64,000 bases of DNA from Halorussus halophilus (GTDB taxonomy: Archaea; Halobacteriota; Halobacteria; Halobacteriales; Haladaptataceae). The position numbers and the translations under genes were made by a program. The notes under the pieces were generated by a model that did not search any database, was not told the origin of the DNA, and saw only the letters and a list, made by a program, of their open reading frames with translations. The stretch spans positions 1,674,001 to 1,738,000 of the forward strand of contig NZ_CP044523.1 in NCBI RefSeq assembly GCF_008831545.1, given 5' to 3'. Below are positions 9,682-38,226 of this stretch, piece after piece (the first letter of the stretch is position 1; each line of letters starts with the position of its first letter).

Positions 9682-9735
9682 GCGCAAAATTTGCGCGGGT
9701 CGGGCTATAAAGACTACGCAACGGCAGAGCCGTTG

Positions 9736-9770
9736 CGAGCCTTGGCTCACCTTCGTTCGCCAAGACACCG
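9736..9770 (+). repeat. Short dispersed hairpin module (second copy at 27545-27578, inverted)
   Basis: CGAGCCTTGGCTCAC followed four bases later by TTCGCCAAGACACCG recurs in reverse orientation at 27545-27578 with only a handful of changes. CTTGGC and GCCAAG can form a hairpin. The surrounding gap 9682-9905 also holds CAACGGC/GCCGTTG (about 9718-9734) and a direct repeat AAGACTACGCAACGG (about 9708 and 9811). No gene is seen in this gap. Confidence 0.5.
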
Positions 9771-9905
9771 AAGCAACGAGTTGTTCGAGCCTTCGTTCAC
9801 TGCTTTCACGAAGACTACGCAACGGTGATGCTGTCTAGAGTGGCCGAGGAGAAGTAGATGGCACGATTACTGGGTAGACACGAGACGACGCGAACTCGAC
9901 TGAGC

Positions 9906-10083
9906 TAGCTACTGCCGAAACTGATGAGAAACCGCACAGCACCGTGAGGACCACATTCCTCCCCAACCGACTCACTTCGGTCGTCCACTGGAAGAGCAAG
10001 CTCTTCCAAGCCTTCGGTCTCTACGCTCCCGAAGACCTCGCGCGGACGGTCGAATCACCGTGGAGATTCGACCGCACGCGCCG
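9906..10083 (+). repeat. Structured intergenic repeat, family 1, copy A
   Basis: A conserved block at 9906-9972 (contains GATGAGAAACCGCACAGCACC and ends TCCTCCCCAACCGACT) matches 38044-38120. It is followed by a near-gapless palindrome, GGAAGAGC/GCTCTTCC at 9990-10007. A second hairpin, GGTCGAATC/GATTCGACC at 10048-10073, sits between CCTCGCGCGGAC and GCACGCGCC, flanks also seen in copy B. A 61-codon open frame crosses it but looks accidental. It lies upstream of the kinase gene at 10191. Confidence 0.65.
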
Positions 10084-21622: not shown

Positions 21623-21801
21623 TGGGGTCGAAGGGATTTGAACCCCTGATCGACTGATATCTCCGGTGTGTGCGCCTCGGAACTCCAGAGGGTCGTCAAC
21701 GCGACCGATGATCAGTCGGTCGCTCAGTATATCAGCTGGAGTTTCGTCGTCGGCGCGTTGCCTCTGGAGTCAGTCGCCATTCCGGGCTTGGCCACGACCC
21801 C
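21623..21801 (-). tRNA. tRNA-Trp (CCA) precursor with 105-nt intron
   Basis: Exon 1 (21764-21801) runs from GGGGTCGTGGCC through the anticodon stem ACTGA and loop CTCCAG; exon 2 (21623-21658) resumes ATCAGT and ends CGACCCC plus discriminator A. Acceptor GGGGTCG/CGACCCC and T arm AGGGG-TTCAAAT-CCCTT pair. The intron (21659-21763) interrupts after position 37. It contains an 8-bp hairpin (GCGACCGA/TCGGTCGC at 21701-21723) and several CTGA and GACGA motifs resembling box D and box C. Haloarchaeal tRNA-Trp introns are known to carry a C/D-box guide for methylating the tRNA itself. Confidence 0.92.
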
Positions 21802-27544: not shown

Positions 27545-27578
27545 CGGCGTCTTGGCGAACGTAGTGAGCCAAGGCTCG
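27545..27578 (-). repeat. Short dispersed hairpin module (inverted copy of 9736-9770)
   Basis: On the minus strand it reads CGAGCCTTGGCTCAC, then TACG, then TTCGCCAAGACGCCG, matching 9736-9770 except in the central bases and one position near the end. It can fold through CTTGGC/GCCAAG. Confidence 0.5.
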
Positions 27579-27740: not shown

Positions 27741-27814
27741 CGGGCCGGAAGGGATTTGAACCCCTGACCGTCTGATTAAGAGTCAGACGCTCTCCCTAAC
27801 TGAGCTACCGGCCC
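27741..27814 (-). tRNA. tRNA-Lys (CTT)
   Basis: Minus-strand sequence starts GGGCCGGTAGCTCAGTTAGG, has anticodon arm CTGAC-TCTTAAT-CAG (anticodon CTT), T arm AGGGG-TTCAAAT-CCCTT and acceptor 3' strand CCGGCCC, pairing with GGGCCGG. The discriminator is G; CCA is not encoded. No intron. The 3' end touches a family-2 repeat. Confidence 0.95.
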
Positions 27815-37787: not shown

Positions 37788-38043
37788 CGGAGAGGACGGT
37801 TGATTTTGGGGCTGTGACGGCCAACTGACTTTGGAACCGTGACAGCCAGTGAATCAAACACAGGTGGGAATGAAAGGGGCTGGACGCTCGCGTTTATGTA
37901 GTCGTCTCAGCGACCCCTATCGGTGTCGGGCGTTGCGGAGAGACACCGATATGTCGCTGAGCGACCGCGAGCGTCCGGGGGCTTTCGTAGAAGAAACGTT
38001 AGGTGTGTTAACTGCTACGGACCAACGACAAACGCAGTGACGG

Positions 38044-38226
38044 TAGCTACTCCCGAAACCAATGAGAAACCGCCCAGCACCGCGACCGCATCGCGACAGC
38101 CACACCCTCCCCAACCGACTGCGCTACTCGATTCGGAAAACCGCGGCATGCCGCTGTTTTCCAGCTGCATTGCTCGTCCCTCGCGCAGTTCGGTGCGACA
38201 CGAGGTCGCACCAGCGCGCGCCGACT
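38044..38226 (+). repeat. Structured intergenic repeat, family 1, copy B
   Basis: In the 514-bp gap 37788-38301. Block 38044-38120 (AATGAGAAACCGCCCAGCACC ... CCTCCCCAACCGACT) matches 9906-9972. Then comes a near-perfect 28-bp palindrome at 38135-38162 (GGAAAAC...GTTTTCC, GCGGC/GCCGC inside). A second hairpin GGTGCGAC/GTCGCACC at 38192-38212 is framed by CCCTCGCGCAGTTC and GCGCGCGCCGACT. Palindrome sequences differ wholly from copy A while architecture is kept. The remaining parts of the gap contain nothing I recognise. Confidence 0.65.

Follow-up and report, generated by a model that had tools for sequence, protein, structure and literature searches.

Transposase-free repeats with palindromes are reported for the haloarchaeon Haloquadratum walsbyi in the form of MITEs, PATEs, and SMRs; PATEs carry near-terminal palindromes related to the ends of IS605-type transposons, and SMRs, around 110 bp long and with terminal inverted repeats, insert into the palindromes of larger repeats (PMC3119063). 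In bacteria, REP, BIME, and REPIN sequences (PMC2817692, PMC3116915, PMC3733652) are high-copy, intergenic, imperfect palindromes with conserved mismatches, which frequently form inverted pairs and are old, vertically kept, and variable in copy number; a REP or REPIN is defined by a unit of 20-40 bp, one end of which carries the tag GTAG or CGTC. A survey of REPs in bacteria and archaea from 2025 does not mention haloarchaea (PMC12306157), and a review of MITEs gives few archaeal families (PMC10969869).

One intergenic repeat is present more than 100 times in the genome of Halorussus halophilus, and two of its copies, A (9903-10082) and B (38041-38222), are situated in the window, i.e., the whole stretch of 64 kb that was analysed. 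The repeat shares with REP, BIME, and REPIN sequences all of the properties listed above, but its unit is much longer (a core of ~105 bp, ~180 bp including the head), contains two hairpins of variable sequence, has no RAYT, and falls outside the size and tag that define a REP or REPIN. It works like a REP/BIME-type repeat; it does not belong to the REP-RAYT system. With the Haloquadratum repeats it has in common the lack of a transposase and the possession of palindromes, and small modules nested in some copies resemble SMRs in their choice of site, although at ~45-55 bp they are shorter. By description, the repeat can also be likened to ERIC and RUP, which are intergenic, exceed 100 bp, possess large and imperfect inverted repeats, and persist vertically, whereas a covarying helix flanked by mismatches is particular to the haloarchaeal repeat; the attC sites of integrons, as an analogy only, are single-stranded DNA in folded form, recognised by its structure and by bases left unpaired, and have a terminal stem that varies. 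Neither a cassette arrangement nor an association with an integrase was seen for the repeat. No prior description of the repeat was found in the open-licence literature searched; an older account may exist.

The core consists, in this order, of GCCACAC-CCTCCCCAACCGAYT, hairpin I, CTCRTCC, CTCGCGCG, hairpin II, and AGCGCGCGCC, the block between CTCRTCC and hairpin II reading CTCGCRCG. It is preceded by a head, which starts with AGCTAGCTACTCCCGAAACC (alternative starts exist) and continues with ACCGC-rich repeats up to GCCACAC-CCTCCCCAACCGAYT. GTAG is present when the head start is read as its reverse complement (GTAGCTAG), where it does not adjoin a hairpin. On the 3' side of the tail, a GTGAAAATTCG-like motif is found in 16 of 90 copies, mostly at a distance of 8-9 nt (0.3 expected from shuffling). 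The most conserved block (9958-9968 and 38106-38116) reads GGTTGGGGAGG on the minus strand and could possibly form a two-layer G-quadruplex; the haloarchaeal cytoplasm is rich in potassium.

The sequence-only reading had taken A and B for homologues because of three shared runs, ATGAGAAACCGC, CAGCACCG, and CCTCCCCAACCGACT. This homology is real: each run is present in both copies where it had been placed, and CCTCCCCAACCGACT has exactly two perfect matches within the 64-kb window, at 9958 and 38106. A chance similarity is excluded, since copy A as a BLAST query yields 62 matches in its own genome (best non-self E=4e-25) and, with a profile of the head, 141 copies are recovered from ~0.49 Mb of own-genome sequence around known copies; copy B as a query yields 56 own-genome matches. 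The family was analysed by profile, BLAST, and direct pair counts, and the own-genome statistics cover these ~0.49 Mb and the window and use home-made gene calls.

Table 1. Features of repeat copies A and B, in positions of the window
Feature	Position	Strand	Description
Copy A, head	9903-9972	+	AGCTAGCTACTGCCG ... ACCGCACAGCACCG ... CCTCCCCAACCGACT; from sequence, family profile match 9904-9973
Copy A, nested small module	9988-10035	+	palindrome GGAAGAGC/GCTCTTCC, AAGCCT, hairpin CTTCGG...CCGAAG, AC
Copy A, palindrome 1	arms 9989-9997/10000-10008	+	9 bp, 2-nt centre
Copy A, tail with hairpin II	10037-10082	+	20-nt arms 10040-10059/10062-10081, 85% complementary; end CACGCGCC
Copy B, head	38041-38120	+	CGGTAGCTACTCCCG ... 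AACCGCCCAGCACCG ... CCTCCCCAACCGACT; from sequence, family profile match 38042-38122
Copy B, hairpin I	38121-38175	+	GCGCTACTC, apical stem GGAAAACCGCGGCA/TGCCGCTGTTTTCC, GCATTGCTC
Copy B, palindrome	arms 38135-38148/38149-38162	+	14 nt, 93% complementary
Copy B, tail with hairpin II	38180-38222	+	GGTGCGAC-ACGAG-GTCGCACC; arms 38192-38199/38205-38212, 8 bp, 5-nt loop; end AGCGCGCGCC

The palindromes and the second hairpins that had been described for both copies likewise exist (Table 1), and the second hairpins are the same part of the element. Concerning the first palindromes, it is true that their stems share no sequence; the comparison was, however, one of non-homologous parts. Palindrome 1 of copy A belongs to a nested module inserted between GTCC and CTCGCG and is not the counterpart of the palindrome of copy B, which is that copy's own hairpin I; the two share no sequence because they are different parts. 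Modules of this kind, ~45-55 bp long and of the form [palindrome]GAGCCT[hairpin]AGAC, are found in many copies, either inside a hairpin or with CRTCC on one side and CTCGCG on the other, and are missing from others. Between the close species G002 and G016, two of them are present in one species and absent from the other (pairs p1 and p3), which indicates recent mobility of the small modules. The sites concerned, in otherwise common elements, are hairpin II (p1) and hairpin I (p3); the modules apparently prefer hairpins as insertion sites and may be secondary parasites of the repeat. Two free-standing modules of the nested kind lie in tandem upstream of copy A (9717-9815), and another is situated near 27549 on the minus strand. 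Copy B is immediately preceded by a large hairpin element of another kind (37872-37986, GAAAGGGGCTGGACGCTCGCG...CGCGAGCGTCCGGGGGCTTTC).

Genome-wide, the short core motif has 127 exact matches, with some places counted double owing to its variable gap, compared with 0 for the reversed control. The copies on the main contig form 106 clusters, of which 74 are single, 31 are head-tail/tail-head pairs, and 1 shows the reverse arrangement; tail-to-tail inverted pairs thus make up ~30% of the loci. With regard to MITE-type ends, the 31 tail-to-tail pairs carry long inverted repeats, and the 74 single clusters are single halves. A GGGGGCTTTCGA-like end within ~130 bp upstream accompanies 28 of the 74 single copies, compared with only 2 of the 64 halves that belong to pairs and with 2.5% of random windows, as though it stood in for the second half. 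None of the clusters overlaps a predicted gene, with a coding share of ~86% in the window, and no significant orientation bias relative to neighbouring genes was found for the copies on the main contig; a coding, promoter, or terminator role linked to gene orientation was rejected on this ground. An origin from phages or plasmids was also discarded, no phage record matching and three haloarchaeal plasmid records showing partial matches.

That the element is dispersed, as had been proposed, is borne out well beyond this genome. The consensus core is present in 17 of 18 congeners, with no copy in G008, 5 matches in G006, and at least 21-48 in the others; its function is dispensable, to judge from these two species. 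Within the class, the exact motif occurs in 119 of 292 genomes and in many genera of Halobacteria. In other genera the head differs, and the core from GCCACAC to GCGCGCC is unchanged. Two matches in non-halophiles come without the remaining core and look like chance.

The suggestion that the element is mobile holds in part only: copy number varies between 0 and more than 40 among congeners, but orthologous sites are kept. G002 and G016, the closest pair (94% identical at the compared locus), have all seven compared sites in common, such that fresh insertions of the main element between them were rejected, and these sites offer no clean empty site of the main element at which a target duplication would show. 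In the seven orthologous pairs, core identity amounts to 93.6% vs. 73.8% for the DNA 55-150 nt upstream; the core evolves much more slowly than the adjoining intergenic DNA and is constrained. A degenerate head in G016 (L283:4790-4867) has no counterpart in G002, its flanks being too diverged to define ends. Near both of its ends (47-55.5 kb and 3578-3586.5 kb), contig C1 of G002 carries near-identical sequence that includes one element copy, possibly a duplicated contig end. Between H. halophilus and the more distant G012, 6 of 13 syntenic sites are common, with compatible orientation, at a rough chance rate of ~3% per site, whereas 7 of the 13 are not; gapped alignments of the intergenic regions of these two are too diverged for base-by-base reading. 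No close species pair was found among the named high-copy species. At site A, the element is missing from G013 and G015, whose intergenic gaps are short there, and in G001 a copy stands in the opposite orientation. Since sites are retained and yet differ between species, copies have been gained and lost over species time and mostly inherited: they multiplied differently in each species and then persisted at the same sites, and most are old and vertically inherited, not freshly mobile.

Covariation within the hairpins was confirmed as well. The main class of hairpin I has the form GCGxTzCTC, apical stem, GCGx'Tz'CTC, in which x and z' form a Watson-Crick pair in 110 of 118 copies and z and x' in 107; the maxima over 20,000 permutations, with the relatedness of the copies ignored, are 58 and 52. 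Copies from the own genome (35/35 and 32/35) and from other genera (57/58 and 55/58) give concordant results, and copy B conforms to the rule with x=C, z=A, x'=T, and z'=G. In a scan of all column pairs (98 columns, 118 copies) these two pairs rank first with z scores of 15.5 and 14.7; the next scores, 6.6 or less, include inner helix pairs and shifts within the repetitive head. The mismatches between the covarying pairs are largely fixed (C.T in 106, T.T in 87, and T.C in 87 of 118 copies), and the base of hairpin I accordingly repeats a pattern of two pairs followed by one pyrimidine mismatch. In about one third of the copies in the own genome, hairpin I is simpler and lacks the GCG repeats; Y36-R63 is paired in 33 of 36 of these. 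Hairpin II possesses a stem, mostly of 8-10 bp, in 104 of 118 copies; over these, 916 Watson-Crick pairs face 15 other combinations, with 68 different inner arms and a mean likeness of 42% between copies, so that complementarity is kept while the sequence changes. Because variable bases covary as Watson-Crick pairs while the intervening mismatches stay largely fixed, the element strand must be able to self-pair. What is upheld of the earlier idea, for hairpin II and the base of hairpin I, is that the stems are preserved in their complementarity and not in their sequence; selection purely as shape is not supported, given the largely fixed mismatches within the covarying helix and the long conserved blocks outside the stems.

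The explanation that we consider best, with a probability of slightly below one half (about 0.48), is that the family represents haloarchaeal interspersed, strictly intergenic double-hairpin repeats, REP/BIME- or ERIC-like, whose folded hairpin is read by a trans-acting protein and which spread rarely and by a non-Y1 route. The half-element comprises the conserved head, hairpin I, and hairpin II, with two halves often placed tail to tail. The protein would recognise the hairpin folded as single-stranded DNA or as a cruciform, less likely as RNA; its cues would be the mismatches that stay fixed and the conserved CCTCCCCAACC/GGTTGGGGAGG block, and selection would act on this recognition. Spread to new sites would be rare, and its enzyme in most of these species would not be a Y1 (IS200/IS605-type) transposase. 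Concerning the latter, PF01797 (Y1 transposase) is absent from G001, G003, G005, G007, and G010, each of which has at least 40 core matches, which excludes a RAYT as a general requirement. The own genome contains two Y1 genes, on another contig and with no linked element: around them, no element profile match was found, only 11-12 nt matches at chance level, and no relation like that of PATEs to IS605-type ends was found for these two genes. An origin from RAYT/IS605 as a general requirement was rejected for these reasons. Neither a protein partner or mobiliser nor a target duplication or fresh insertion of the main element turned up in the genomes compared.

The main rival is that the G-rich (minus) strand is transcribed into a structured non-coding RNA or an RNA regulatory element; on this strand, the mismatches turn into A.A, G.A, and A.G and the bulged bases into A. 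We regard this rival as rather unlikely. An arrangement in which helices covary around mismatches that stay fixed is typical of RNA. At two basal pairs of hairpin I, 36-63 and 47-52, A.C occurs 59 and 15 times and G.T not at all (Fisher p 0.0002 and 9e-14), i.e., G.U is tolerated on the minus strand and A.C never seen there; this one-sidedness fits folding of the minus strand, be it as RNA or as single-stranded DNA. An AT-rich patch 12-18 nt past the tail might also speak for transcription as RNA, but it appears unlike the TATA box usual in haloarchaea. G.T and A.C, on the other hand, are uncommon in hairpin II and the apical stem and roughly balanced between strands, which fits pairing at the DNA level with neither strand special; strand-specific wobble, suggestive at the two basal pairs and not seen in these stems, was therefore dropped as a proof of RNA. 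The lack of a consistent orientation to adjoining genes also stands against an RNA, as does the result from Rfam, which returned no match to the element and just two tRNAs in the window. These tRNA genes lie on the minus strand (21623-21801 and 27741-27814), the first, with 179 bases against a 71-position model, probably containing an intron. On balance, recognition of folded DNA is mildly favoured over minus-strand RNA.

A host chromosomal DNA site, cruciform-forming and never mobile, to which a nucleoid, topology, or repair protein binds and which is retained because of its own function, would account for the strictly intergenic position without strong gene-orientation bias, for persistence at orthologous sites with a conserved core, and for presence over much of the class. 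It is nevertheless clearly unlikely: within one genus, one species has no copy, another has 5 matches, and copy numbers differ widely, 7 of 13 sites are not shared with G012, and the copy at site A is inverted in G001, differences that spreading and loss fit better than a site that never moved. Quite improbable, finally, is a neutral relic of an ordinary DDE-transposon MITE with palindromes perfected by templated (quasipalindrome) correction instead of selection. In its favour, the tail-to-tail pairs resemble a long-inverted-repeat element, several own-genome pairs correspond to a single half in G012, and the near-absent wobble of the apical stem fits templated correction. Such correction, however, would remove the C.T, T.T, and T.C mismatches, and these persist in most copies and in different genera; moreover, between orthologs the core shows stronger conservation than the adjoining intergenic DNA, and no related transposon is found in the stretches examined.

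The reading in terms of a protein-recognised hairpin can be extended to a haloarchaeal system common to the whole class: a hairpin with the two-pairs-then-one-mismatch pattern (C.T, T.T, and T.C fixed, the paired bases free to covary) would serve a dedicated protein, or a minus-strand RNA, and would have been dispersed without a RAYT to as many as 100-plus intergenic sites, where selection has maintained it since; in this extended form we hold it to be doubtful. The structure-reading process to which the repeat points seems to be undescribed so far. The repeat would constitute a major family of Halobacteria, with dozens to more than 100 copies per Halorussus genome, that is absent from the literature searched. 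Its covariation pattern provides a ready genetic test, breaking x or z and restoring the pair, of whether a folded nucleic acid is read, and its absence from one congener and near-absence from another offer a route to the partner gene via comparative genomics. In archaea without the Y1 transposases that are held responsible for REPs, the spread and retention of such repeats could then be put to the test.
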